Below are positions 41,520-54,614 of a DNA stretch of 64,000 nucleotides, piece after piece. The DNA is from Pseudomonadota bacterium (GTDB taxonomy: Bacteria; Pseudomonadota; Alphaproteobacteria; Rhizobiales; Beijerinckiaceae): positions 1-64,000 of the forward strand of contig JAIUNR010000010.1 in the NCBI GenBank assembly GCA_020161575.1. Reading direction: 5' to 3'. How positions within the stretch are numbered: position 1 is the first letter of the stretch; each line of letters opens with the position of its first letter. Position numbers and translations under genes: made by a program. The notes under the pieces are model-generated. The model was not told where the DNA came from. It made no database searches and saw nothing but the letters and a program-made list of their open reading frames with translations.

Positions 41520-41867
41520 ATGCTCTCGGATCCCAAAGCCAGACAGATTACCCCCGGCTCCAAGCCCCTCGCAGCCAGAGGGGGCACCGACCAGTTTCTC
41601 CTTCCTTCGACCCGACGCGGCGAGGGAAAATGGATCATGTGTTTCATCTCTCCGATGACGGGCAAACGGCGGGAACTCGGGCTTGGCACCTATCACTCGA
41701 CCGGAATTGCCACAACGCGCCTGCAAGGGCTTGAAGCCAATATGCTGATTGCCGAGTGAAGGCATCCGATCGAACCCCGCCGGACTGCGGAGGTCGGAAG
41801 GCGTGTCGCGATTACCGACATGACGTTCCGTGTAGCAGCGGGGAAGGCCCGGATACAACATCGCTAG
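41520..41867 (+). pseudogene. tyrosine-recombinase (integrase) N-terminal remnant
   Basis: The frame reads MLSDPKARQITPGSKPLAAR, then LLPSTRRGEGKWIMCFISPM and TGKRRELGLGTYHSTGIATT, the Arm-type DNA-binding domain (DUF4102) found at the N-terminus of tyrosine integrases of tRNA-integrating islands. A TGA at 41757-41759 interrupts it (expected Gly, as in IAEGRHPI), after which RHPIEPRRTAEVGRR continues to 41867. Core-binding and catalytic domains (R-H-R-Y) are missing. Located 150 bp inside the left repeat, it marks the integration end of the island. Dead gene. Confidence 0.8.
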
Positions 41868-43459
41868 GCGCTCCTCACGGCCTGCCAGTCAAGGCTGAAC
41901 CGGGCGAGGTATTTACGAAGGCGATCCGCATCATTCGCACTGGCCTTCTGCGCACGGGAGGCCGCGAAGAGCGCGCGCCCGGCAGCACTCAAGCTCGAAT
42001 GCTCGCGACAGATACGGATCACCGAAGCGAGTTGGACCTGATCGAAAAGGTCGATGGCTCCAAAGCACTCCTCACCCAGAAGACTGATCAGCAAGGCTTG
42101 CCCGTTGTCTTCCCCCGCGCGCGACCAACTGCGCCTGAGGCGTGCGATTTCCTCGATCACCACATCTTCCGTGATGCGGCCTGAAGGGGCGAAGGTCGCC
42201 ATGCGGGTCACGGAAGCCGCGAGATCACGAAAATTGGCGGTCCAGCTGGCCTCAGGTGAGGTCGCGAAGGCGAGATAGCGTGTCCGCGCCTCGCTGTTGA
42301 AGGTGACTAACTCGTTTTCCTGAGCAGCGTAGCCGCGCAGCTCAAAATCAAGATTGGGCTCGATATCCTCACGACGGTCTGCAAGTCTGGGCAGTTCGAA
42401 GGTCCAGAGGTTCAACCGGGCCAACAGATCTTCACGAAACTTGCCCTTGTCGACGTCAGAAGAAAGGTCGCGGTTCGTGCCGGCAATCAACTGGAAGTCG
42501 CTCGCCACTTCCTTGTCTGCGCCCATCGGCAGAAAGCGTTTTTCCTCGATGGCCCGCAGGATCATCGCCTGCTCGTCGATGCCGAGTTCGCCAATCTCGT
42601 CGAGAAAGAGAATGCCGCCATCGGCCTTGCGAAGGAGCCCTGCGCGATCCTGCAAGGCACCGGTAAAGGCTCCTTTCGCGTGGCCGAACAAAGTGGACAT
42701 CGCGCCATCGCCGCGCAGGGTGGCACAGTTAACTTCCACGAATTCGCCGCGCACCTGATTCCGGGCCTTCTTCAGCGCATAGATCCGGCTCGCGAGCTGC
42801 GATTTGCCCGCGCCGGTCGGCCCTGTAAGCAGCAATGGCGCACGAGAGCGAATGGCCACCTGCTCGATCCGGTCAATCATCTGGTTGAAGGCGACGTTGC
42901 GCGTGGCAATACCGGATTTCAGGAAGGACGAACCCTCTGCCTGTTCGGCCTTGAAGCGGGTCGCAATGTGATCGTAGCGGGCGAGGTTGATGTCGATGAT
43001 GTCGTATTTGCCTGGCCCACCATCCTGCCAACGCCGGGGAGGGGTGAGCTGCATGATCTGCGCGGGAATGTAATGCGCCTCGATCAGCAGAAACCAGCAG
43101 ATCTGAGCCACATGGGTGCCGGTGGTGATGTTCACGAGATACTCCTCGCGATCCGGGTTGAACGGATAGGCGCGCGCGAAATCATGCATCGCGGCATAGA
43201 CCTCGCCAAAATCCCAGGGATTCTTGAGGTTCATCACATGGCGGCGCGCCTCAGTTTCCGGCGAGACCTGCGCGATGTCGCTCGTGATGCGCTGGGCGAG
43301 CGTCTCGGCATGATTGTCGTGGATGATCTCGATCCGGTCGACGATCATATCCTCATGCTGGCAGACGGCGACGGTGGGGCGCCACCGTTCCCAGCGGTTG
43401 TGCTTGCCGGCATCGAGCGAGGTGCCGAGAAAGCCGATGATGACGCGACGCTTGCCCAT
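41864..43459 (-). CDS. rtcR: RtcR, CARF-domain sigma54-dependent activator of RNA repair
   Basis: 531 residues. Residues 1-185 are the RtcR-type CARF sensor (RVIIGFLGTSLDAGKHNRWE, EEYLVNITTGTHVAQICWFL). The central AAA+ domain has Walker A LLLTGPTGAGKSQLASRIYA, the sigma54-contact loop GAFTGA (in FGHAKGAFTGALQDRAG), and Walker B GGILFLDEIGELG. A C-terminal HTH region ends the protein. RtcR senses a nucleotide or RNA-end ligand and opens sigma54 polymerase at the rtc promoter. It is divergent from the Rsr gene, with a good sigma54 promoter in the 200-bp gap. Its stop overlaps the integrase remnant. Confidence 0.96.
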   Translation of the reverse strand: MGKRRVIIGFLGTSLDAGKHNRWERWRPTVAVCQHEDMIVDRIEIIHDNHAETLAQRITSDIAQVSPETEARRHVMNLKNPWDFGEVYAAMHDFARAYPFNPDREEYLVNITTGTHVAQICWFLLIEAHYIPAQIMQLTPPRRWQDGGPGKYDIIDINLARYDHIATRFKAEQAEGSSFLKSGIATRNVAFNQMIDRIEQVAIRSRAPLLLTGPTGAGKSQLASRIYALKKARNQVRGEFVEVNCATLRGDGAMSTLFGHAKGAFTGALQDRAGLLRKADGGILFLDEIGELGIDEQAMILRAIEEKRFLPMGADKEVASDFQLIAGTNRDLSSDVDKGKFREDLLARLNLWTFELPRLADRREDIEPNLDFELRGYAAQENELVTFNSEARTRYLAFATSPEASWTANFRDLAASVTRMATFAPSGRITEDVVIEEIARLRRSWSRAGEDNGQALLISLLGEECFGAIDLFDQVQLASVIRICREHSSLSAAGRALFAASRAQKASANDADRLRKYLARFSLDWQAVRSA

Positions 43460-43503
43460 CTAATTTATCCAAAAAAATAAAGGGAGATACTATTAGATCG
43501 TTT

Positions 43504-43518
43504 TTGAGGGAGACTCAA
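43504..43518. promoter_or_regulatory. candidate upstream activating site for RtcR
   Basis: Inverted repeat TTGAG-GGAGA-CTCAA, about 95-105 bp upstream of the sigma54 promoter, which is the usual distance for an enhancer-binding protein. Only one such dyad was seen, so the assignment is tentative. Confidence 0.35.
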
Positions 43519-43610
43519 TAGAGCGGCAGCGAGGAAGCCCGGCAAGGTAAATAGTACAAGATATTGATAATAAACATTTTTACAAGAATTTTGTCGCCGC
43601 GCCATCACTT

Positions 43611-43626
43611 TGGCACGAACCTCGCT
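43611..43626 (+). promoter_or_regulatory. sigma54 (-24/-12) promoter of the rsr-Y RNA-rtcBA unit
   Basis: TGGCACGAACCTCGCT matches the sigma54 consensus TGGCACGnnnnTTGCW at all but one consensus position. GG (43612-43613) and GC (43624-43625) are separated by exactly 10 bases. Transcription should begin near 43637, leaving about 23 nt before the Rsr start. It fits the adjacent RtcR gene. Confidence 0.88.
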
Positions 43627-43659
43627 ATCATGCCACTTGTCAAATGAAGGATGAGAGCA

Positions 43660-45219
43660 ATGGCAAACAAATCCGTGTTTGCATCGATCGTTGGAAAGCT
43701 GCTCCCGCGCCCCGATGTGAAGAACCATGAGGGCGCACCTGCCTACGGCCTTACGCCCCGCCACAAGCTGGCGCAGCTTGCGGCAACGGGCACGCTCAAC
43801 CAGACCTTCTATGCGGAGGCGCGGGAGCAGCTGGACGAAATTACCCGCCTGCTTCCGGAAATCGAGCCGGAATTCATGGCGAAGACGGCCATCTATGCCC
43901 GCGAGAAGGGCTTCATGAAGGATATGCCGGCCCTCCTGCTGGCCTATCTCTCCATGATGCAGACCGAGCATTTCAGCCTCGCGTTCAATCGCGTGGTCGA
44001 TAACGGCAAGATGCTGCGCAATGTCGTGCAGATCCTGCGTTCGGGTGCGACGGGCCGAAAGTCCCTCGGCACCCGGCCCAAGCGGCATGTCCAGCTCTGG
44101 CTGGAAAACGCCTCGGACCGCGAGATCATGCGAGCGGCTGTGGGGAATGCCCCCTCGCTGGCCGACGTGATCAAGATGGTCCATCCCAAGCCGCGTTCAG
44201 CGGAAAGGGCAGCGCTCTACGGCTACCTCATCGGGAAGCCGCATGATGTTTCGGCCCTGCCGGAGATCGTGCGGGATTTCGAGGCGTTCAAGGCAGATCC
44301 GACCCGCGAGGTGCCGGATGTGCCTTTCCAGATGCTGACGGCGCTCCCCCTCACGAAGGAGCACTGGATCGCCATTGGCCGCAAGGCCGGCTGGCACATG
44401 CTGCGGATGAACCTCAACACCTTCATGCGCCACAAGGCGTTCGAGGATGAGGCATTCACCCGCTTCGTGGCCAATCGGCTGGGCGACGAAAAGGCGATCC
44501 GGAAGGCGCATGTCTTCCCGTATCAACTGATGGTCGCGCATGCGATGGCATCGAACGCGCCGCCGCTCATCCGCGAGGCATTGCAGGACGCAATGGAAAT
44601 TGCGGTCAGTAATGCCCCTGCCGTGGATGGCCGGGTCGTCATCTGCCCCGATGTCTCGGGCTCCATGTCGTCACCGGTGACGGGTTTCCGTCGCGGAGCC
44701 ACGACTGCGGTGCGCTGCATTGATGTCGCGGCCCTTGTGGCAGCGGCATTCCTCAGGGCTAACCGCCATGCGCGGATCATCCCGTTCGAGCAGGCTGTGG
44801 TCGAGATCGACCTCAACCCGCGCGACACGGTGCTGACCAATGCGGCGAAGCTGGCCTCCATCGGCGGCGGCGGAACCAACTGCTCGGCGCCGCTTGAAAA
44901 GCTGGTGGCGGAAAAGGCGAAGGTCGATCTTGTCGTGTTCGTCTCGGACAACGAGTCCTGGGTGGATGCGGACCCGAACCGGCATCGCGGAACGGCGATG
45001 ATGCAGAACTGGCAGAAGCTGAAGGCTTGGAACCCGAAGGCAAAGCTGGTCTGCATCGACATCCAGCCGAACACCACGACGCAAGCCGTGGAGCAGGCGG
45101 ATATCCTCAATATCGGGGGCTTCTCCGATACGGTGTTCGATACGATCAGCGCCTTCCATCGGGGGGAGCTGACGCCTGATCGCTGGGTTGGCGAGATCGA
45201 GAAGATCGTGCTTGAATAA
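43660..45219 (+). CDS. rsr: Ro60/Rsr ortholog (TROVE domain + vWA domain)
   Basis: 519 residues from the ATG at 43660 (MANKSVFASIVGKLLPRPDV); an ATG 9 bases upstream is also possible. The HEAT-repeat TROVE ring occupies about residues 30-330 (FYAEAREQLDEITRLLPEIE, KAGWHMLRMNLNTFMRHKAF). The C-terminal von Willebrand A domain has the MIDAS motif in VVICPDVSGSMSSPVTGFRR. Ro proteins bind Y RNAs on their outer surface and misfolded RNA in the central hole, and in bacteria link RNA to PNPase. It is the first gene after the sigma54 promoter, and the five Y-RNA-like modules begin 3 bp after its stop, so it is most likely their binding partner. Confidence 0.95.
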   Translation: MANKSVFASIVGKLLPRPDVKNHEGAPAYGLTPRHKLAQLAATGTLNQTFYAEAREQLDEITRLLPEIEPEFMAKTAIYAREKGFMKDMPALLLAYLSMMQTEHFSLAFNRVVDNGKMLRNVVQILRSGATGRKSLGTRPKRHVQLWLENASDREIMRAAVGNAPSLADVIKMVHPKPRSAERAALYGYLIGKPHDVSALPEIVRDFEAFKADPTREVPDVPFQMLTALPLTKEHWIAIGRKAGWHMLRMNLNTFMRHKAFEDEAFTRFVANRLGDEKAIRKAHVFPYQLMVAHAMASNAPPLIREALQDAMEIAVSNAPAVDGRVVICPDVSGSMSSPVTGFRRGATTAVRCIDVAALVAAAFLRANRHARIIPFEQAVVEIDLNPRDTVLTNAAKLASIGGGGTNCSAPLEKLVAEKAKVDLVVFVSDNESWVDADPNRHRGTAMMQNWQKLKAWNPKAKLVCIDIQPNTTTQAVEQADILNIGGFSDTVFDTISAFHRGELTPDRWVGEIEKIVLE

Positions 45220-45222
45220 GAC

Positions 45223-45334
45223 TGGCCGGGGGGAATGCCTTCGGGACTACATTGGGAACTGGTCCGCGGTCGAAAGGCTAGCGCCAGTCGGGCGCGAGCC
45301 CGGGTGTCTCGATCCTCCCTTGTCCCCCCGGTCA
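45223..45334 (+). ncRNA. Y-RNA-like module 1
   Basis: Helix 1 pairs 45223-45234 with 45323-45334 (12 bp, one G-U). The conserved GAATGC follows its 5' strand and CTTGTC overlaps its 3' strand. Helix 2 pairs TCGGGAC (45241-45247) with GTCTCGA (45306-45312). Between them is a variable domain that includes a GGGC-GCGA-GCCC GNRA hairpin; no TTCGA T-loop is visible, so this module is the least tRNA-like. It begins 3 bp after the rsr stop. Ro-type helix plus the 3' CUUG matches the Y RNA layout. Confidence 0.82.
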
Positions 45335-45343
45335 CTTTCTAAA

Positions 45344-45450
45344 CATGGCGAATGCCGACGGGATTACATCCACCATCTGGCGCTGGCGGCAGGAAACCGC
45401 CACCGGACTCATCGTTATCCGGAGCCGATCTCGTCATTCTTGTCGCCGTG
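45344..45450 (+). ncRNA. Y-RNA-like module 2
   Basis: Helix 1 pairs CATGGCGA (45344-45351) with TCGCCGTG (45443-45450). Helix 2 pairs GACGGGAT (45357-45364) with ATCTCGTC (45428-45435), 8 bp with one G-U. Variable domain: hairpins TGGCGG/CCGCCA and CCGGA/TCCGG. Helix sequences differ from module 1 but pairing is kept. The 3' internal-loop strand is CATTCTTG, with the conserved CTTG. Confidence 0.85.
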
Positions 45451-45481
45451 CTGCTGAACGGGAAAGGGTGAAGACGAAAAA

Positions 45482-45607
45482 CGTGACGAATGCAGGCGGA
45501 ACTACATCGCTGTTAACGATCCGTGTCGCGGGTTCGAGCCCCGCCAGGTGCAAGCCTGTAGCTCAGTTGGTAGAGCAGGAATGTTTCGCCGAACCCTTGT
45601 CGTCACG
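45482..45607 (+). ncRNA. Y-RNA-like module 3 with a circularly permuted tRNA-Asn-like domain
   Basis: Helix 1: CGTGACGA (45482-45489) with TCGTCACG (45600-45607). Helix 2: GGCGGAAC (45495-45502) with GTTTCGCC (45583-45590). The insert holds, in this order: an anticodon-like arm ATCG-CTGTTAA-CGAT (45506-45520; the loop equals a tRNA-Asn GUU anticodon loop), a variable GTGTC, a T-arm GCGGG-TTCGAGC-CCCGC (45528-45544), an acceptor-like stem CAGG/CCTG closed by TGCAAG (45545-45558), TA, and a D-arm GCTC-AGTTGGTA-GAGC (45561-45576). This is tRNA order opened between D-arm and anticodon arm and closed at the acceptor. It is not a normal tRNA gene. Confidence 0.85.
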
Positions 45608-45620
45608 GCTTTCCATTCAC

Positions 45621-45747
45621 GCAGCGAATGCTTGCGGGACTCCATGGTAGCGCGCCTGCCTTTGGCAGGAGGCCGGTGGTTCGAATCCACCCTCCGCCGC
45701 AAGGCGTGAGTAGCGCAGCAAAACGTCTCGCCCATGCTCGTCGCTGC
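45621..45747 (+). ncRNA. Y-RNA-like module 4 with a tRNA-like domain
   Basis: Helix 1: GCAGCGA (45621-45627) with TCGCTGC (45741-45747). Helix 2: GCGGGAC (45634-45640) with GTCTCGC (45725-45731). The insert has a D-loop-like CCATGGTAG, a hairpin CCTGCC-TTT-GGCAGG (45655-45669) in the anticodon-arm position, a perfect T-arm GGTGG-TTCGAAT-CCACC (45675-45691), and an acceptor-like stem CGCC-GCAA-GGCG (45695-45706) capped by a GNRA loop, then GTAGCGCAGC resembling a short D-arm. The internal-loop strand is CTCG instead of CTTG. Confidence 0.85.
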
Positions 45748-45773
45748 AATCCTTTCCGTTTTCGTCGTGAAGG

Positions 45774-45898
45774 CGTGGCGAATGCTGCTGGGACTCCATT
45801 GGTAGGGCCGCAAGGCTTGAGGTTCGACTCCTCCGCGATGCGGAGAAATCCGTGCTGCGAGACGGTCTCACCACCCCTTGTCGCCACGGCCTACACGA
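45774..45898 (+). ncRNA. Y-RNA-like module 5 with a reduced tRNA-like domain
   Basis: Helix 1: CGTGGCGA (45774-45781) with TCGCCACG (45891-45898). Helix 2: TGGGAC (45789-45794) with GTCTCA (45865-45870). The insert has CCATTGGTAG, a mini-hairpin GCC-GCAA-GGC, a T-arm GAGG-TTCGACT-CCTC (45819-45833) and a closed stem CGC-GAT-GCG. The conserved CTTG precedes the 3' helix strand. It ends 56 bp before rtcB, and a T-rich stretch TTTTGTTTTTCT (45906-45917) follows, a possible processing or pausing site. Confidence 0.85.
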
Positions 45899-45954
45899 CG
45901 CCGAATTTTGTTTTTCTGCCCCGAAGTGGCAGGTGTTTATGGAAGGAACGGACC

Positions 45955-47199
45955 ATGGAACGGTCGTTCGAGTTTTTGACCGAGGCTTTCGATGCCGCGC
46001 GCGAGGCCAAGGCCGCGCCGGTGAAGATGTGGACGCGTGGCGTGCCGGTGGATGAACCGTCGAAACGCCAACTCCTCAACACCGCCTCCATGCCGTTCAT
46101 CTACAAGTGGATGGCGGTGATGCCGGATGTCCATTACGGCAAGGGCTCGACGATTGGTTCGGTGATCCCGACCATCGGCGCGATCATCCCGGCTGCCGTG
46201 GGCGTCGATATCGGTTGCGGCATGATGGCGGCGCGCACCTCGCTCGTTGCCTCTGATCTGCCGGATACCCTGCTGCCTTTGCGTTCCGCCCTGGAGCGCG
46301 CGGTGCCGCATGGACGTTCGGTGGGGCGTGGCAAGCGCGATTCCGGGGCCTGGCACAACCTGCCGAAGGCCACCGAAGAAGGGTGGATGGGGCTCGAAGC
46401 CGGCTTCAAGGCCATCATCGAGAAGCATCCCAAACTCGCTTCGGCTAACACCGCGAACCATCTGGGAACGCTCGGAACCGGCAATCACTTCCTCGAGGTC
46501 TGCCTTGATGAGGAGGATCGTGTCTGGTTCATGCTGCATTCCGGGTCGCGCGGTGTTGGCAATGTCATCGGCACCTACTTCATCGAACAGGCGCAGAATG
46601 ACATGCGCCGGTTCTTCATCAACCTGCCGGACGAGGATCTCGCCTACTTTCCCGAAGGGACACCGAACTTCGACGATTACGTCGAGGCGGTGGAATGGGC
46701 GCAGAGCTTCGCGATGATGAACCGCCAGGTGATGATGAGCCACGCCATCGAGGCTGCGCGCGGGGTGATCGAGAAGCCGTTCGAGGCTCATCTCGAGGCC
46801 GTGAACGGCCATCACAACTACGTCGCGCGCGAGCATCATTTCGGGAAGAACGTGTTCATCACCCGAAAGGGGGCGGTGCGCGCAGCGGAAGGTGTGATGG
46901 GCATCATCCCGGGCTCGATGGGCGCGAAGAGCTTCATCGTGCGCGGGAAGGGCAATCTCGAGAGCTTCTGCTCGTGCTCGCATGGCGCGGGGCGTGTCAT
47001 GTCCCGTGCCGAAGCCAAGCGTCGCTTCACCATCGCCGATCACATCGCGGATACGGCGGGCGTGGAGTGCCGCAAGGATGCTGATGTGATCGACGAAACG
47101 CCGAAGGCTTACAAGGATATCGACGCCGTGATGGCCGCACAGGGCGATCTCGTCGAGATCGTTCACACCCTGAGGCAGATCGTCTGCGTGAAAGGTTAG
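45955..47199 (+). CDS. rtcB: RtcB RNA-splicing ligase (3'-phosphate/5'-OH)
   Basis: 414 residues from the ATG at 45955, preceded by GGAAGGAACGG; upstream in-frame sequence is Y-RNA DNA, not coding. Mn- and GTP-dependent ligase motifs are all present: VGVDIGCGMMAARTSLVASD, HLGTLGTGNHFLEVCLDEED, MLHSGSRGVGNVIGTYFIEQ, VNGHHNYVAREHHFGKNVFI and the guanylylation His in SFCSCSHGAGRVMSRAEAK. It joins RNA 2',3'-cyclic phosphate or 3'-phosphate ends to 5'-OH ends, for example cleaved tRNAs. It follows the Y RNA array and precedes rtcA. Confidence 0.97.
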   Translation: MERSFEFLTEAFDAAREAKAAPVKMWTRGVPVDEPSKRQLLNTASMPFIYKWMAVMPDVHYGKGSTIGSVIPTIGAIIPAAVGVDIGCGMMAARTSLVASDLPDTLLPLRSALERAVPHGRSVGRGKRDSGAWHNLPKATEEGWMGLEAGFKAIIEKHPKLASANTANHLGTLGTGNHFLEVCLDEEDRVWFMLHSGSRGVGNVIGTYFIEQAQNDMRRFFINLPDEDLAYFPEGTPNFDDYVEAVEWAQSFAMMNRQVMMSHAIEAARGVIEKPFEAHLEAVNGHHNYVAREHHFGKNVFITRKGAVRAAEGVMGIIPGSMGAKSFIVRGKGNLESFCSCSHGAGRVMSRAEAKRRFTIADHIADTAGVECRKDADVIDETPKAYKDIDAVMAAQGDLVEIVHTLRQIVCVKG

Positions 47200-47258
47200 T
47201 CGTTTGGGTGCCGAGGAGCCATCAAAGACCCCTCGGAAGCTTCGTGCGCTTCTGTTGT

Positions 47259-47579
47259 TTATGGATGGACGGTCACGAAGTCTTCACGCCAGCCATCCTG
47301 ATCGAGAGCGTGTTCATCGATCAGGAAATCATCCGGGTGATCCTCGAGCCCGGGGAGCAGCTGGGTGCGTACCATCGCAGCCTCAGCATTGGCGCGTGAC
47401 CCATAAACATCGATCAGCTTGCCATCACAGTCGCCGTCGCCAAGGTCGCGACTATGCCAGAGCAGAAAACAGAATTCATAACCATGACAGTGCCTTCGAG
47501 CCGAGGTTGCGTGATATGATAATGATTGATGGTTCCCTTGGCGAGGGTGGCGGGCAGATCCTGCGCTCCTCGCTAACAT
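47259..47579 (-). CDS. small protein antisense in the rtcB-rtcA gap
   Basis: The frame ends with a clearly protein-like segment: FLLWHSRDLGDGDCDGKLID, VYGSRANAEAAMVRTQLLPG, LEDHPDDFLIDEHALDQDGW. I recognise this as a small conserved family that typically opens Y-E-V-F-L-L-W-H and has the K-L-I-G-V-Y and D-E-Y blocks (possibly DUF7336; function unknown). The matching region starts near 47490, but no ATG/GTG/TTG lies there; the only in-frame ATG is at 47579, overlapping the rtcA start on the other strand. So it is either a real gene with an unusual start or a truncated relic. It fills most of the 316-bp gap between rtcB and rtcA. Confidence 0.45.
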   Translation of the reverse strand: MLARSAGSARHPRQGNHQSLSYHATSARRHCHGYEFCFLLWHSRDLGDGDCDGKLIDVYGSRANAEAAMVRTQLLPGLEDHPDDFLIDEHALDQDGWREDFVTVHP

Positions 47580-48556
47580 TGTCGATGGTCACGGGAAAGC
47601 CGTTCGCCATCGAGAACATTCGCGCGAGCCGCGAAAATCCTGGCCTGATGCGCCAGCACTTGACAGCCGTGAAGGCTGCCGCCGCCATTTGCGGGGCCCA
47701 AGTTCGCTATGCCGAGATCGGCTCAACGCGCCTTGTGTTCGAGCCTGGCCGCGTGGTCGGGGGGACGCATGAATTCAACATTGGCTCGGCTGGCTCGACG
47801 TCGCTCGTGCTTCAGACGCTGCTCCTGCCGCTGGCCCTCGCGACTGCGCCGTCACGCCTTGTCATTCAAGGCGGAACGCACAACCTCGCCGCACCACCCT
47901 TCGAGTTCATGGCGCGCGCCTTCCTGCCCTTGCTGGCAAGGGTCGGCTACCGCGTGCGCATCCGACTGACCCGTCCCGGCTTCTTCCCGGCCGGCGGCGG
48001 CGAAATCGTGGTGGAGATCGAGCCGTCCACGACGCTTGAGCCGCTCGTGCTCGAGACGCGTGGGGCGCTTGTTCGCCGTCGCATTGAGGCGCGGATCGCC
48101 AACCTGCCGTTCAACATCGCAAAGCGCGAGGTGGCGCATGCCGGAGAGATACTCGGCTGGAATGACGAGGAAGGTGCGGCCCTCCAGATCGATGATGCGC
48201 CGGGCTCCGGGAATGTCGTGCTGATCGAGGTCGAGCACGAAACGGTCACCGAGGTCTTCACGGGCTTCGGTCGGCAGGGTGTCTCGGCGGAAGCGGTCGC
48301 GGCCAGTGCCGCCAGAGAGGCTCGTGACTACCTCGCCGCCTCCCATGCGATTGGCCCGCATCTCGCGGACCAGCTCCTCCTGCCTATGGCGCTCGGCAGG
48401 GGCGGTCGTTTTACCACTGGCCCGCTGACGAGCCATACGCGCACCAACATCGCGACCATCCAGAGATTTCTAGATGTGCCGGTGCTGGTGCATTTCGAAG
48501 CGCAGGATTTCGTTGTGGAGTTGGGATGCCCCAGTCCATCGGGAGAAGCAGCCTAG
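47516..48556 (+). CDS. rtcA: RtcA RNA 3'-terminal phosphate cyclase
   Basis: 346 residues from MIMIDGSLGEGGGQILRSSL at 47516 (GAGG about 8 bases upstream). Conserved RTC motifs: RASRENPGLMRQHLTAVKAA, GSAGSTSLVLQTLLLPLALA, FFPAGGGEIVVEIEPS and the adenylated-His region near PMALGRGGRFTTGPLTSHTR, in which SHTRTNI is typical. It converts RNA 3'-phosphates to 2',3'-cyclic phosphates with ATP, supplying or protecting ends for RtcB. It is the last gene of the repair unit; the right 80-bp repeat begins 42 bp downstream. Confidence 0.96.
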   Translation: MIMIDGSLGEGGGQILRSSLTLSMVTGKPFAIENIRASRENPGLMRQHLTAVKAAAAICGAQVRYAEIGSTRLVFEPGRVVGGTHEFNIGSAGSTSLVLQTLLLPLALATAPSRLVIQGGTHNLAAPPFEFMARAFLPLLARVGYRVRIRLTRPGFFPAGGGEIVVEIEPSTTLEPLVLETRGALVRRRIEARIANLPFNIAKREVAHAGEILGWNDEEGAALQIDDAPGSGNVVLIEVEHETVTEVFTGFGRQGVSAEAVAASAAREARDYLAASHAIGPHLADQLLLPMALGRGGRFTTGPLTSHTRTNIATIQRFLDVPVLVHFEAQDFVVELGCPSPSGEAA

Positions 48557-48903: not shown

Positions 48904-49836
48904 TCACGGATCGAAGAATTCTTCGTCGATGCGCTTGATGGTGAGCGTTTCCTCGATCCGACAGCCAATACTGTGTGCCAGCATCAGGCGAGCAAACTGA
49001 ACGCCGTCGATCAGGACGATCCGCTTCGAGAGCATTCCTGCCGTCTCACGCGCGCTGGCCGAGAAGGTTGATGTTGTGACAAAAAGGCCCTTGGTCGCGC
49101 GCACGCGGTCCAAAGAGCCAAAGAAGTCGCGGATTGCCCCTGAGCCAACCGGGGAACCATCCTGATAACGCTTGGCCTGGACGTAGATGCGGTCAAGCCC
49201 AAGGGGATCCTGATCGATCACGCCATCAATCCCCCCGTCTCCGCTCCCACCCGTCAGCGCGCGATCGAGCGCGCCAGCCGATCCGCCATAGCCCATAGCG
49301 AGCAGCAGCTGGACAATGACGCGCTCGAAGAAGGCAGGCGTCCCTTGCCGGACGCGCGTGAGCAGGTCCTCGGCCAAAGCCGTTTCAAGCCTGCGATAGG
49401 CGAGCCGGATCGTCTCGTCAGGGGTGAGCGTCGGCTCGTCGGCGGGTTTTACGGTGGTTAGTGCAACCGATTCGGTGCTGTCGGAATCGCCGCTACCATC
49501 GTTCCGGAAGGCAGCGAATTCCGGAAAGCGCTGGAGCAACTTGATGTCGATGCGCTTGGGCGGTGACGCCAAGACCTCGTGTCCGCGCGCTGTGATCGTG
49601 AACCGCCCTCTTCCGCTCAAGCTGATCAGCCCTGCCTTGCCGAGGTAGCTCTTGGACCAGTGAACCCGGTTGGCAAACGTTGTCTGCCGGCCGGATGGGA
49701 GAAGATGCGCGCGCTCATCCGGTGTCAGAGCGAATTCGTCCGCCAGGCGCTCGACGACATCGCCAATGCGAACCTCGCCTTGTGCCGAGGCGCGCAAAAC
49801 CGGGAGCATGAGCGTCTGAAAATCAGGAATGGGCAT
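48904..49836 (-). CDS. mrr: Mrr-type restriction endonuclease
   Basis: 310 residues. N-terminal winged-helix Mrr_N domain (residues 1-95; VHWSKSYLGKAGLISLSGRG) and C-terminal PD-(D/E)xK catalytic domain: MGYGGSAGALDRALTGGSGD then GGIDGVIDQDPLG with catalytic Asp and YVQAKRYQDGSPVG with the QxK motif. Mrr enzymes cut DNA with foreign methylation. The gene start overlaps the hsdM stop by one base, so it belongs to the restriction operon as its last gene. Confidence 0.92.
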   Translation of the reverse strand: MPIPDFQTLMLPVLRASAQGEVRIGDVVERLADEFALTPDERAHLLPSGRQTTFANRVHWSKSYLGKAGLISLSGRGRFTITARGHEVLASPPKRIDIKLLQRFPEFAAFRNDGSGDSDSTESVALTTVKPADEPTLTPDETIRLAYRRLETALAEDLLTRVRQGTPAFFERVIVQLLLAMGYGGSAGALDRALTGGSGDGGIDGVIDQDPLGLDRIYVQAKRYQDGSPVGSGAIRDFFGSLDRVRATKGLFVTTSTFSASARETAGMLSKRIVLIDGVQFARLMLAHSIGCRIEETLTIKRIDEEFFDP

Positions 49837-51284
49837 CAGCGCTCTCCCAATGCCGCAGCAACGCCGCGGAACCGCTCCAGCGCCGTCTCCAGGCTCTCGA
49901 CGATGTCTGCGGCGACCTCGTCCGGCGGCGGCAGCAAGTCCGGGTCGTCCAGCGCGTCATCCTTCAGCCAGAAAATGTCGAGATTGACCTTGTCGCGCGC
50001 GAGCAAGGCATCGAGCGGAAAGCGCCTGAATTTCTCGCTTTCCTCGCGCTCAAAACGCCGCCCAGGGCGATAGCAGGCAATGAAGTCATGGAGATCGGCG
50101 CGAACCATGGGGCGCTCTTTCAGCGTAAAGCGCTGGTTGGTGCGCAGATCGTAAATCCAGAGGTCCTTCGTCGCGGCTTCCTCTGACGGAGGCTTCTTGT
50201 CGAAGAACAGCACATTCGCCTTCACGCCCTGCTTGTAGAAGATCCCGGTCGGCAGCCGCAGCAGCGTATGGAAGTCGAAATTGCGCAACAGCCTCCGCCG
50301 GATTGTCTCGCCCGCGCCACCCTCAAACAGCACGTTGTCGGGGAGCACCACCGCCGCTTCGCCGTTCGGCGCAAGTACGGTCATGATGTGCTGAAGGAAA
50401 TTGAGCTGCTTGTTCGAGGTGGTGACGAAAAAGTCCTGCCGGTCGTAATCCTCGCGCTCGCTATCGATCTCGCCGTCGTCGCGGACGATTCTGTAGCTCT
50501 GTTTCTTGCCGAAGGGCGGGTTGGTGAGAATGACATCGTAGCTTTTCCCCCCTGCCCCGAGCAGCGCGTCTTTCGCCTCGACGATCGAGTCGACGCCTGT
50601 GATGCCGTGCAGATAGAGGTTCATGGCCGCAAGCCGGACGACCTCAGGCACAATATCGACCCCGGAGAACTTGCCCTTGAGCGCCGAATAGACGGCCCGG
50701 TCCCGCGCGCGCGGGTGCTTCTTCATGTGCTCCCAGGCCGCGAGCAGAAACCCCGCTGTGCCGCAGGCGGGGTCGTGGATCGTCTGATGGGGTTCGGGAT
50801 CGACAACCTCCACCATGGCCTCGATCACCGGGCGCGGCGTAAAATATTGCCCCGCGCCGGATTTTACATCCTCGGCGTTGCGCGCGAGCAGGCCCTCGTA
50901 GATATCGCCCTTAACATCGACCGGCAGGCCGAGCCAGGTCTCGCCGTCGATGAGCCCGACGAGGCGTTTGAGCTTCGCTGGGTCCTGGATCTCGTTCTGC
51001 GCCTTGAGGAAGATCGCGCCGATAATGCCGCCCTGCTTCGAGAGCGTATCCAGCAGCTTGACGTATTTGATATTCAACGCCTCGCCGGAGAGATCCTTGA
51101 TATCGCCCCAGCGCGCGCCCTCGGGCAGCATTGAGGCTTCGCCGATCTGGGTGACGCGCTCCTCGTCCATCTTGAGGAACAGGAGATAGGAAATCTGGCT
51201 GATATAGGCCTGATAGCTGACGCCCTGATCGCGCAGCACATGCGCGAAGTTCCAGACCTTGGCGACGAGGGTTTGCGCGTTCAT
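49836..51284 (-). CDS. hsdM: type I restriction-modification DNA methyltransferase subunit
   Basis: 482 residues from MNAQTLVAKVWNFAHVLRDQ at 51284. N-terminal HsdM_N helices, then the N6-adenine methylase domain: the SAM motif region IHDPACGTAGFLLAAWEHMK and the catalytic NPPFGKKQSYRIVRDDGEID. Partner of HsdS and HsdR. Its start overlaps the stop of the DUF262 gene by 4 bp and its stop overlaps mrr, so translation is coupled. Confidence 0.96.
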   Translation of the reverse strand: MNAQTLVAKVWNFAHVLRDQGVSYQAYISQISYLLFLKMDEERVTQIGEASMLPEGARWGDIKDLSGEALNIKYVKLLDTLSKQGGIIGAIFLKAQNEIQDPAKLKRLVGLIDGETWLGLPVDVKGDIYEGLLARNAEDVKSGAGQYFTPRPVIEAMVEVVDPEPHQTIHDPACGTAGFLLAAWEHMKKHPRARDRAVYSALKGKFSGVDIVPEVVRLAAMNLYLHGITGVDSIVEAKDALLGAGGKSYDVILTNPPFGKKQSYRIVRDDGEIDSEREDYDRQDFFVTTSNKQLNFLQHIMTVLAPNGEAAVVLPDNVLFEGGAGETIRRRLLRNFDFHTLLRLPTGIFYKQGVKANVLFFDKKPPSEEAATKDLWIYDLRTNQRFTLKERPMVRADLHDFIACYRPGRRFEREESEKFRRFPLDALLARDKVNLDIFWLKDDALDDPDLLPPPDEVAADIVESLETALERFRGVAAALGER

Positions 51285-52981
51285 GGCAGCGCCTCGGGTG
51301 CGATGTCCCAAGTCGCATGGAGCTTTGTGAGCAGCGCCTTCTGACGAGCCTCAAGGACTGCTGGCGTCCATGCTTTCTCACCCAACACTTGCGTCGTGAT
51401 GACGAACGGCGAGACCCCACCACTTCCGGAGAAGTAGCGATCCTTTTTGACGGAGAAATCCCAATTGCTGGCCTGAGTATTTTTGCGCAGCGTCAGCAGA
51501 ACAAGATTGGCCAGCTTATGCGTCCAGCTATTTCGGATCGCCTCGTCCGGGAAATCTTGCAGCCACTGGCTCGCAGCATTCGGCGTTTGCGGTAGCACGT
51601 GTTCGACCGAAACCATATCGTGGCTATAAGTAGCCCCACCGGATGAAAGCTCCGCATCAAGGCGCAGCAGCAGCGGCAGGCGCACGCGCGTCACCTCATA
51701 GAGCGGACCGTCGAGATCGGCGCGGAAAGCAGCCTTGTCTTCCTTGCTGAGTTCGATCGACTTTCCCTTCCAATCTCCACCGACAAGATCGGTCAGCACA
51801 TTGGCATAGCGCCTGATACGCTCATTGATATTGGCGCGGGTGACGAACAGGAAATAGGCTAGAGTCTCGAGCCGCTGCATGAACAAGGCTGCATCGTCGG
51901 GCGAGGGTTTTGCGTGCGCGAAGAATTTCAGTGCGACAGGTAACCAGTCGTTGTTGTCGAGCTTGGTGAGGTAGCGCAGGCGTTTGGTGGCCTCGTCTCC
52001 ATGAAGCGTGGCAAAGGCGGGTGGCGAAAGCAGCATGGCGAGCGTGGCACCCAGCGGCTGCAACAAGTCTTTCATAAACTTCACATGGTCGGCGAAGTCG
52101 GTGACGAACCGCTTGAAGCCAACCTCCAATCGTTCGCGCGGTTTGTCGCGCTGGTAAATCATCCGGATGTGCTGGAAGAGCTCCGCAAATCGTTCGCGGC
52201 CGAGCTGTTCTTCGATCGCCTCCCACGAATCCGAATAGTCCTTCTCGTCGGCGGCAGCGACGCGATCCAGCAGATCGGCTTTCAGGATATCGGCCGGCGT
52301 GAGGTCAAGGCCGCGCGCGTTCAGCACCGTGAACACGCGATGCGCCATATCCACATTCGCCACCGCGATGACGACGAGATAGCAGCGCTGCAACAGGAAC
52401 GCGACCAGCCGGTCGCGGTATTCGGGCGTCATAGCCTTGGCGCGATTGTGAAACAGTGTGGCGTTTTCAACGATCCGCAGGCGGCTATCGGTTAACCCTT
52501 TAGTGCCCGGCAGTGTGTTCGTGGCGCCCTTGTTCTGAACCGTAACGCGGAAGAATTCTTCATCGCGCTTGCGTAAAGTCAGGCGATATCGGCTCTTGGT
52601 GCCTTTGTCGGGGTCGCCTTCCTCGCAGATATAGCCGTGACGTTTGATCCCGACTTCAAGCGAGGAAAGATCGCGCAGCACCGAAAGCAGCATCGTTAAT
52701 GTCGTCAACCGCTGTTGGCCATCAACAACCTTGGCTTCCGGCGAGCCCGGCTGCTTGATCAGCACGATGCTGCCGAGGAAGTAAGTCACCGGCTCTTTGG
52801 TCTCGACCGCATCCTTGAGCGCAGCAAGTATATCGTCGAGCAAGGCTTCGGCTTGCTCTATCTCCCAGGCATAGGGGCGCTGATAGGTCGGGATCGCGAA
52901 GGCAAACTCGTCGCTGAAAACGCGGCTGAGCCGTTCCTGCCCGGCTTTGATCGGCTCCAATTCCATCGGTTCAAACTGCAT
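51281..52981 (-). CDS. DUF262/DUF1524 protein (GmrSD-like type IV restriction)
   Basis: 566 residues. N-terminal DUF262 ParB-like fold with FAIPTYQRPYAWEIEQAEAL and the diagnostic VVDGQQRLTTLTMLLSVLRD. C-terminal DUF1524 His-Me/HNH-like nuclease domain: DMVSVEHVLPQTPNAASQWL and THKLANLVLLTLRKNTQASN. GmrSD-type enzymes use NTP and cleave glucosylated or otherwise modified phage DNA. It sits inside the hsd operon between hsdS and hsdM, coupled to hsdM. Starts at 52981 or 52966 are both possible. Confidence 0.93.
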   Translation of the reverse strand: MQFEPMELEPIKAGQERLSRVFSDEFAFAIPTYQRPYAWEIEQAEALLDDILAALKDAVETKEPVTYFLGSIVLIKQPGSPEAKVVDGQQRLTTLTMLLSVLRDLSSLEVGIKRHGYICEEGDPDKGTKSRYRLTLRKRDEEFFRVTVQNKGATNTLPGTKGLTDSRLRIVENATLFHNRAKAMTPEYRDRLVAFLLQRCYLVVIAVANVDMAHRVFTVLNARGLDLTPADILKADLLDRVAAADEKDYSDSWEAIEEQLGRERFAELFQHIRMIYQRDKPRERLEVGFKRFVTDFADHVKFMKDLLQPLGATLAMLLSPPAFATLHGDEATKRLRYLTKLDNNDWLPVALKFFAHAKPSPDDAALFMQRLETLAYFLFVTRANINERIRRYANVLTDLVGGDWKGKSIELSKEDKAAFRADLDGPLYEVTRVRLPLLLRLDAELSSGGATYSHDMVSVEHVLPQTPNAASQWLQDFPDEAIRNSWTHKLANLVLLTLRKNTQASNWDFSVKKDRYFSGSGGVSPFVITTQVLGEKAWTPAVLEARQKALLTKLHATWDIAPEALP

Positions 52982-53010
52982 TCGGTCGCTCCTATACGGC
53001 TCTTATCTGA

Positions 53011-54501
53011 TTAAGCTTTGGTCCGCCGCCCACGTTTTGAGCGCGGATCGGTGGAAGGGGTGGCCTTGAGCCGCGCGAGCAGGACGCTGGCGGGTTCGTC
53101 GGCGGGGTCTTGCGGCACGAGGCGGCCTTCGAAGGCGGCCTTGAGGATGGATTGCTTCAGCCGCGCGGCGTCAGCGGCTGAAGCATCGAGCATGGCTAGC
53201 GTGTCGGCGCTGGCAGCGAGCGCCTCGGAGACGCGGCGGAGGATTTCAGCGGCTTCGGCAGGTGGTGGGATGGGGATGGGCAGAGCTTCGATCTGATCAA
53301 AGCTCAGGTGCGGGCGCCCGGCTCAGTAGATCACCTTTTCCATTTCTCGACGCCCCCCATCCGGAGCGATCAGAAACATCTCCAGATACTCGGAGATCTC
53401 AGCTATCACCGGACGCATCAGCGCAACGCTTTGGCAGACAAAGTAGTCTCTCGCTTCGAAGTTCACTCGGCAGACATCACCGGTGTTGGCGCCGACAATC
53501 GTTATGAGCAGATCATCTCGTCGAATTCTGCTGCGTTCAACATCCTTTAGGTGTCCCGGCGGATCAACGTGCTTTTTATAATCGTGATTGTAACGTCCAG
53601 GCCGAACGTTCTGGGCCATGACGAATACCTTTGATCCGCGATCATAGTATTCTGCCCAATCCCTTGAGCCACTGGTCAAGTGTGACAGAAGCTCGCCCAA
53701 CGTCCCCCACGCCCAGCCCTCTGGCAGTTGCGGCAGGGCGGCGGTGTCGAGCGGTGGAGCGTCGGGGCTGCGTTTGCCGCGGCCCTTGGTCTGCCCCTTG
53801 GCGGCGCGTTCGGCGCGGATGCGGGCGAGGAGGTCGTGGCCCGTCTCCGTGACCGGGTTGGTCTCGCGCCATTCTTTCGTCAGGTCGCCGGTGACGGCGG
53901 CTTTGAGCAGCGCGCGGCGAAAGGTGTCGAGCCCCTTGCGCGCCGCCTCGAGCGCCGCCTCGCCCTCGGCAATCTCGGCAAACAATTGATCCACCCGCGC
54001 CACGATGCGCCGCTGTTCGGCGAGCGGCGCGAGGGGGAAGTCGAAAGCGGCGATTGTTGCAAAATCGATCCGGGGGCGGTCGCCACTAACGGTGCTCATC
54101 GCCTTGTTCACAAAGCGGCGCGCGTGCATGAAAAGCTGAAGATACTTCGGCGATACCGCGCATGAAGGAGTGATAGCGAGCAATTCACCCGAACATGCTC
54201 CTCCCTCTGGCGCCAAAGCGGTCTTGTTGAGGTAGGGTCGAAGGCGACCGTAAAGAACATCGTTCTTTTGAAAGCGATTGCCAGCGCTCTTCATAGTGCC
54301 GAACGGCCGTGTTTGAACAATCTTTGTGCCGTGCGCCTCGATATCATCCATTCCTACGAAAGGTAGGTTCGGTTCCGATTGAGGTTCGACCTTCTCGCCG
54401 CGCAGATCGGCTATCCCTCCAAGCTGCGTCCAAGCCCACCCCTCCGGCAATTCCCAAGGCCCTTCGCTCTCGTTCTCTACGCTCTCCGCAACCATATCCA
54501 T
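53011..54501 (-). pseudogene. hsdS: type I restriction specificity subunit hsdS, split by one nonsense codon
   Basis: From ATG 54501 the frame encodes the first target-recognition domain (ELPEGWAWTQLGGIADLRGE, LAPLAEQRRIVARVDQLFAE), the central conserved helix, and most of the second domain (LPQLPEGWAWGTLGELLSHL). It stops at TGA 53323-53325 after REMEKVIY. The same frame resumes at once with AGRPHLSFDQIEALPIPIPP and the final conserved helix to 53011 (LKQSILKAAFEGRLVPQDPA). Family members read Gly (VIYGAGRPHLSF), so one GGA-to-TGA change inactivates the C-terminal part. HsdS selects the DNA target; loss of the last helix should disable the complex, unless the stop is read through or the fragments assemble. 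Confidence 0.9.
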
Positions 54502-54614
54502 CACGCCACCAGCACATCGGAGAGTTCATCGAGCAAAGCCGACAGACGCGCGCCAAACAGGCCGTGCGCCTTGAGGATACCGCCACGCTCGGCAAGTTCC
54601 GGCAGAACCATCAT
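54501..54614 (-). pseudogene. diverged extra copy of the hsdR 3' end
   Basis: This 37-codon frame reads [20 protein letters not shown] then GARLSALLDELSDVLVA. It aligns without gaps to the last 37 residues of the HsdR gene at 55296 (23 of 37 identical). It overlaps the vapC stop (ATGA) and the hsdS start (TGATG), so the old hsdR-hsdS junction is preserved. It is best explained as the original hsdR tail left behind when vapBC plus a new hsdR end arrived. Confidence 0.85.

Follow-up and report, generated by a model that had tools for sequence, protein, structure and literature searches.

The analysed stretch of DNA, referred to as the window, is 64,000 nucleotides long and derives from a Beijerinckiaceae bacterium (assembly GCA_020161575.1, contig JAIUNR010000010.1, positions 1 to 64,000). 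Between the rsr and rtcB genes of an RNA-repair operon it contains five predicted Y RNA genes which, as judged from sequence and predicted fold, share one stem, differ in the head mounted on it, and are not five copies of one element. The stem is likely the grip of Rsr, the bacterial Ro60 protein, which is ring-shaped and acts in RNA quality control. The head of module 3 is of the canonical YrlA type, a tRNA domain opened at the anticodon arm, that of module 4 appears as a tRNA cloverleaf opened in the D loop, and modules 1, 2 and 5 carry heads of other kinds. The five RNAs would probably act as interchangeable adaptors for one Rsr ring; they would be expressed, processed and bound by Rsr, with different heads serving different partners.

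The operon extends over positions 41864-48556, in the order rtcR (minus strand), sigma54 site, rsr, array, rtcB and rtcA (Table 1). The divergent rtcR, the predicted sigma54-type promoter and the presence of both rtcB and rtcA are those of an RtcR-regulated RNA-repair operon, and rsr is located directly upstream of the array, Y RNAs being encoded beside the Ro60/Rsr gene. The rsr product is 90% identical to Rsr of Rhabdaerophilum sp. SD176, which puts the bacterium near this genus; its Pfam TROVE match (PF05731, 1.2e-6) is confined to residues 250-299. For rtcA, the PF01137 match begins at residue 113 of the ORF 47204-48556. The TGGCACgaaccTCGC-type sigma54 pattern has two exact matches in the window, one of which is the site upstream of rsr, and 21 matches, against 19 expected, when one mismatch is allowed; as the latter is no commoner than chance, the site is weak if taken alone. 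In 8 of the 10 loci checked, window counted, rsr is preceded at 38-51 bp by the start of a sigma54-like site, 0.007 such sites being expected per 280 bp; none was found before rsr in L009 or in the Rhizobium plasmid L123.

Two further observations concern the surroundings of the array. No stop codon interrupts the rtcB reading frame upstream as far as 45628, a stretch that runs through modules 4 and 5, so that gene callers may place the rtcB start too early and hide these modules. Beside the RNA-repair operon, genes for an Mrr-like endonuclease, an HsdM methylase and a GmrSD-like endonuclease (48904-54504) form a defence-rich neighbourhood, beyond which lies an ORF that, judged by eye, is specificity-subunit-like.

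Table 1. Features of the rsr operon and of its array of predicted Y RNA genes, in window coordinates.
Feature	Position	Strand	Evidence
rtcR: RtcR (CARF-like) domain and sigma54 AAA+ activator, divergent from operon	41864..43459	-	PF06956 7.6e-79, PF00158 6.2e-49
sigma54 -24/-12-like site TGGCACgaaccTCGC, 40 bp before rsr ORF	43611..43625	+	sequence match
rsr, bacterial Ro60 (TROVE-type, vWA domain)	43651..45219	+	PF25045 vWA_Ro60 3.9e-19
Module 1: Y stem, non-tRNA head	45223..45334	+	scan 27; RF02553 20.6 bits at 45228-45332
Module 2: Y stem, conserved non-tRNA head	45344..45450	+	scan 24; RF02553 21.9 bits
Module 3: canonical YrlA, tRNA domain opened at anticodon arm	45482..45607	+	RF02553 69.4 bits
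Module 3, T arm	45528..45544	+	Rfam YrlA consensus, permuted tRNA calls
Module 3, capped acceptor-like hairpin	45545..45558	+	Rfam YrlA consensus, permuted tRNA calls
Module 3, intact D arm	45561..45576	+	Rfam YrlA consensus, permuted tRNA calls
Module 4: cloverleaf opened in D loop, Y stem replaces D loop	45621..45747	+	rotation, covariation, covariance model
Module 4, D stem 3' strand GCGC, pairs with 45713-45716	45650..45653	+	two covarying pairs
Module 4, anticodon-type arm: 6 bp, TTT loop, no anticodon	45655..45669	+	loop survey, covariation
Module 4, variable loop AGGCC	45670..45674	+	16-sequence class alignment
Module 4, T arm GGTGG-TTCGAAT-CCACC	45675..45691	+	class alignment
Module 4, acceptor-type stem closed by GCAA, lower part imperfect	45692..45710	+	permuted tRNA calls
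Module 4, D stem 5' strand GCGC, TA before as tRNA positions 8-9	45713..45716	+	class alignment, permuted tRNA calls
Module 5: Y stem, head with T arm	45774..45888	+	scan 23; RF02553 26.6 bits; class T-only
rtcB RNA ligase	45955..47199	+	PF01139 4.3e-129; start codon picked by eye
rtcA RNA 3'-phosphate cyclase	47516..48556	+	PF01137 6.9e-78; start codon picked by eye

The scan that identified the modules looked for AATGC beside a helix closing on a CTTG-like strand, together with a second helix; both strands of the window outside 45001-46000 served as background. The five modules score 23-27, against 20.5 for the best of 12 other matches in the window, and a stricter scan of the 64 kb yields exactly these five on the plus strand and one match on the minus strand. 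They are 112, 107, 126, 127 and 115 nt long (modules 1-5), are all encoded on the plus strand between rsr and rtcB and, by scan borders, are 9-31 nt apart. The two-helix frame which the preliminary description had reported for five modules was confirmed at 45223-45888; helix 1 measures 12, 8, 8, 7 and 8 bp in modules 1-5, exactly as claimed, and helix 2, also described as paired, measures 7, 9, 8, 7 and 7 bp. The internal loop was found as stated there too, with 5' AATGC in all five modules and 3' CTTG in four, replaced by CTCG in module 4. A stem of the type bound by Rsr, i.e. terminal helix, internal loop and second helix, is therefore present in all five, binding itself being a prediction.

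Rfam cmscan aligns all five modules to YrlA (RF02553). The gathering score of 69 bits is passed by module 3 (69.4), the scores of modules 1, 2, 4 and 5 being 20.6-28.7, and in a whole-genome search E 0.001 is reached by modules 3 and 4 only. Since matches to YrlA below the cut-off are also present in 7 of 14 control genomes, low RF02553 scores alone prove little, and the assignment of modules 1, 2, 4 and 5 as Y RNAs rests on the scan, the tandem setting and the comparison with other loci. The proposal of Y-RNA-like modules beside rsr in a Ro/RNA-repair operon is supported. As the current Rfam model passes one module out of five, such RNAs are probably under-annotated.

Conservation of the pairing was evaluated in modules 2-5, by aligning the orthologous arrays of three relatives and applying the helices defined in the window. 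In this comparison 167 cells are unchanged, 9 are kept with both sides changed, 5 are kept by a one-sided change, 3 are broken and 2 are gaps. Module 1, left out of the count, is absent from two of the relatives (L003 and L009) and has 2 of its 19 pairs broken in the third, PAR1. Compensatory change had been claimed earlier from the differences among the five modules. The two-sided changes seen in relatives bear the claim out, but the comparison of siblings inside one array is weaker evidence than covariation across species, because the modules are old paralogues.

Among the five heads, that of module 3 alone has the T arm - capped acceptor - D arm order of YrlA, which modules 1, 2, 4 and 5 do not show. 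In circularised ARAGORN runs, 84% of its 173 permuted tRNA calls place the junction in the anticodon region.

In module 4, the order of the elements is D stem 3' strand, anticodon-type arm, variable loop, T arm, acceptor-type stem, U8-A9 and D stem 5' strand. Rotation brings the score of the module against its best match among 33 host tRNAs, a tRNA-Pro, to 27.5; the unrotated sequence scores 5.5 and 100 shuffles 5.0 +/- 2.5, with a maximum of 13.5, the median of host tRNAs among themselves being 18.25. Of the 44 tRNA matches in the genome, 30 were used to compile this host set, in which each of the 33 tRNAs is distinct. The Rfam tRNA model gives a sub-threshold match of 24.2 bits at 45647-45692. 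A degenerate ordinary tRNA was considered for module 4 and rejected, as ARAGORN finds no linear tRNA in the window and the unrotated score is at shuffle level. The acceptor end, open in a tRNA, is closed by GCAA, and TTT is found in place of a seven-base anticodon loop. With no anticodon loop and with a closed hairpin as acceptor end, a head of this type would retain the tRNA elbow and neither functional end.

Module 4 belongs to a class, initially aligned as 16 sequences from a pattern classifier, three by eye. In this alignment, 98.1% of the cells are paired and 15 of 29 pairs contain double changes; cells changed on both sides number 60, versus 16.8 in shuffles, none of 500 shuffles reaching as high, and slides likewise fall short. 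Twelve of the 16 variable structure pairs, one of them in the split D stem, lie above the 99th percentile set by 3305 other column pairs. The split D stem contains a covarying pair, A-U/C-G, and a second one, G-C/A-U. After adding 12 model-found sequences, in an alignment of 28 fitted to the covariance model, double changes are found in 6 of 6 pairs of the anticodon-arm stem and in 2 of 4 pairs of the split D stem. Helices 1 and 2 had been used to choose modules, and the D and T stems, partly by eye, to choose the class, so that covariation in the anticodon-arm stem is the only part independent of this choice. The loop of the anticodon-type arm in the 28 sequences is 4 nt long in 14, 6 in five, 3 in two (window's included), 8 in two, 14 in two (as scored), and 5, 7 and 10 once each.

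For class calls, the regular-expression classifier was replaced by a covariance model and circularised ARAGORN, several of its calls being wrong: L005.5, L080.5 and L083.4 as D-opened class-I tRNA type, and L004.4, L005.4 and L008.5 as T-only. With the class model, module 4, itself a training sequence, scores 125.7 bits. At 74.9 bits or more, a level placed at a gap in the scores (the next being 61.9) after these had been seen, the model detects 26 modules, 16 of them training sequences and 10 not, in 24 of the 46 rsr loci described below. A search of 297 whole genomes of the order gave 15 matches of at least 74.9 bits, in 13 genomes, each lying downstream of rsr and no more than about 1 kb from it. 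Relaxing the threshold to E 1e-4 brings the number of genomes with a match to 82 of 297; the majority of these have no rsr, and the matches in them do not exceed 44.6 bits. We suppose that the matches in rsr-less genomes are mostly ordinary tRNA genes.

The remaining heads are of other kinds. No T arm was found by head classification in modules 1 and 2, a D arm was looked for in the head of module 5 and none was found, and circularised ARAGORN, run on the scan-only modules, gave no permuted tRNA call for any of the three. The head of module 2 is predicted to fold as two hairpins on a short closing stem. RNAalifold, applied to eight orthologues, predicts 30 pairs, 14 of them in the head; 12 of the 30 (6 of the 14) survive a change of both sides in one or more of the sequences, and several are broken or gapped in 2-4 of the eight. 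A conserved fold was found neither beyond the stem in module 1 nor beyond stem and T arm in module 5. A recurring head, in which a T arm is followed by a GGCGCTCTCTGGCACGAGCGGG-like hairpin and which is not a full tRNA, was noticed in L050, L051, L060, L062, L063, L067, L069 and L070.

The search was extended to 46 rsr loci, namely the window, seven named contigs, 35 further genomes and three from elsewhere in the phylum. A 36th further genome, L057, was treated as a duplicate of the named locus L008, its contig being the same, and was left out, although earlier scan-only counts include it. Of 40 rsr-bearing genomes other than that of the window, 39 were taken, G833 (26% identity) being left out. 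Scan and covariance model together yield 211 modules, with 2-7 modules per locus and a median of 5. These counts rest on structure-fitted searches, and weak matches at array edges may make them wrong by one. L006, L053, L054, L068, L090 and L091 each had one scan match situated beyond about 2 kb from rsr; these were dropped, their scores (18.5-19.5) being inside the control range. The counts include one distant match each in L055 and L056 and one partial in L071; five or more modules are present in 25 of the 46 loci, with or without them. In L055 (1576-1685) and L056 (3505-3614) an isolated Y-like match lies about 430 nt past the array. Five modules in tandem, held to be unusual in the preliminary description, are thus not so in this set; its overall reading stands for the stem, the helices and the operon, and had missed that the heads differ.

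The different heads were compared with tRNAs by a test in which no order of the arms is assumed: module cores were doubled, trimmed by 0-21 bases per end and submitted to ARAGORN. At least one permuted tRNA was called in 105 of 211 modules versus 1 of 844 dinucleotide shuffles, and at least ten in 94 of 211 versus 0 of 844; in a first run on scan-only modules, where one locus was counted twice, the figures were 89 of 185 and 0 of 370 shuffles. The anticodon arm contains the junction in 53 modules (38 loci), the D loop in 25 (18 loci) and the variable region in 16 (15 loci), and D-opened modules occur together with another opened kind in 16 loci. As 106 of the 211 modules have no call and 11 more have fewer than ten, full tRNA mimicry is, by the circularised test, absent from the majority of the heads. 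Nine modules fit the pattern of a D-loop-opened tRNA of type 2, in which the variable arm is long (strands GACGC and GGCGGA), and we tentatively call them Leu-like. Eight of the nine are last in their array (in L050, L060, L063, L071, L072, L079, L080 and L089), and seven have at least ten D-opened ARAGORN calls.

The set of modules is old, as judged from sequence comparison; near relatives preserve its order, which does not hold for all loci. The window modules have similarities of 0.47-0.78 with their positional counterparts in L003 and L009 and of 0.22-0.50 with those in Inquilinus, against 0.03-0.23 among siblings. By reciprocal best matches, evaluated in 15 of the 45 other loci, the module order of the window is kept in 11 and broken in L049, L051, L060 and L089. 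All five window modules are matched only in L004 and L005, and two to three of the five in more distant loci. A recent tandem duplication was rejected, siblings being less alike than positional counterparts in related genera.

The proposed sequence of events would start with the appearance of broken tRNAs, which would switch the transcript on through RtcR and sigma54. The transcript would be processed into separate RNAs of about 107-127 nt, and Rsr would bind each of them via helix 1, internal loop and helix 2. Heads shaped as tRNAs would offer the tRNA elbow, formed by T and D arms, to proteins recognising it; PNPase, of which a family gene is encoded in the genome, would be the first candidate partner, by analogy with the Rsr - Y RNA - PNPase complex (RYPER) of Deinococcus radiodurans. 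The other heads may control access to the ring or bring in further partners. With a single grip and several heads in one conserved array, both the role of the bacterial Ro particle and the multiplicity of Y RNAs would become testable. A wider generalisation, which we hold tentatively and with slightly more doubt than conviction, is that Ro operons of Alphaproteobacteria are ordered kits of Y RNAs, in which tRNAs, including a type-2, Leu-like one usually placed last, are grafted on the common Rsr-binding stem at the anticodon arm, D loop or variable region. With both business ends sealed or missing, such uncharged, undecodable shapes would dock Rsr to different tRNA-handling enzymes during tRNA damage.

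The tRNA-shaped heads could, instead, be decoys, competing with tRNAs for stress-activated anticodon nucleases or tRNA-modifying enzymes when tRNAs are damaged, the tether to Rsr serving only for stabilisation. The operon is of RtcR type and, in PMC7790460, Salmonella RtcR is described as binding 5' tRNA halves with a cyclic phosphate, and YrlA as a competitive inhibitor of an anticodon nuclease is named as a possibility. Module 4, with an anticodon-type arm lacking the anticodon loop and with a capped acceptor, could be bound and not consumed. A nuclease reading the anticodon loop would, however, miss a tri- or tetraloop, and the non-tRNA heads of modules 1 and 2, matched in relatives, would be unexplained; the decoy reading is unlikely.

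The modules might also work in cis, as stem-loops processing or stabilising the rsr-rtcBA mRNA and separating rsr from rtcB expression, with the tRNA-like folds as cleavage sites. tRNA-like elements do serve as processing sites elsewhere, and every module is located between rsr and rtcB, in the same strand and at 9-31 nt from the next. Yet the modules have the helices and internal loop typical of YrlA RNAs, the head types are matched across genera beyond what spacing needs, and modules are also found on Rhizobium etli pA, where the next gene listed in an incomplete plasmid table, about 780 bp past rsr, encodes a hypothetical protein. A cis role is quite improbable. That module 3 works and the rest are drifting or dosage copies would agree with its being the only one above the Rfam cut-off, and with the loss of module 1 in L003 and L009 and its broken pairs in PAR1. 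Redundancy of this kind is disfavoured and seems highly improbable, given that siblings are less alike than positional counterparts and that compensatory change keeps pairs in modules 2-5, in the eight module 2 orthologues and in the 28 module 4-type RNAs.

The adaptor reading builds on known systems. YrlA (RF02553; Salmonella YrlA, PDB 6CU1) is likewise encoded beside rsr in an RtcR-type operon, has a stem with the same internal loop and, like module 3, which is above the cut-off, the T - acceptor - D order. It differs from module 4 by the D-loop opening and the anticodon-type arm of the latter, and from modules 1, 2 and 5, which have other heads; five modules per array are a further difference. 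YrlA, its mimicry of tRNA and its circular permutation are already known: its domain has been likened to D, T and acceptor arms (PMC8394870), and a circularly permuted superposition of the 6CU1 Y RNA on tRNA has been published (PMC11472068). The rsr-yrlBA-rtcBA operon of Salmonella Typhimurium, as described in PMC7790460, has the same gene order, a divergent rtcR for a sigma54-dependent activator, and Y RNAs between rsr and rtcB; these are two, whereas the window has five and the 46 loci 2-7. Compared with tRNA (RF00005), rotated module 4 has all arms, U8-A9, the AGGCC variable loop, a T loop and a score like that of host tRNAs, but it is not linear, has no anticodon loop, ends in a tetraloop and is set in a Y stem. 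The action expected of a tRNA-like head on the Ro ring is, by analogy, that of RYPER, a model which has one adaptor, whereas several heads are predicted for the window array. In the literature covered, which did not include the main Y RNA papers, we found neither a Y RNA opened at the D loop and lacking an anticodon nor arrays of this kind; this is weak evidence of absence, and the D-loop-opened class appears, provisionally, to be new. With a D-loop-opened tRNA lacking its anticodon, Y RNAs would possess a second type of tRNA mimicry.

The distribution of the system is patchy. Two of four sampled genomes of the same genus (G339 and G404) lack rsr, which indicates that the system is dispensable; rsr relatives are also found on 68 plasmid records, 44 of them of Rhizobium, and the two observations together suggest that the operon moves or is lost. 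Large plasmids of Rhizobium and Methylosinus (L123, L124) carry rsr with Y-type modules. Matches to Rsr were also noticed in 170 phage records, 113 of them of Streptomyces phages, all below 60% identity. The module scan found no modules in an 8.6 kb piece of Myxococcus phage Mx1, where an Rsr relative (47.7%) is accompanied by a nearby tRNA-Gly and a peptidyl-tRNA hydrolase gene.
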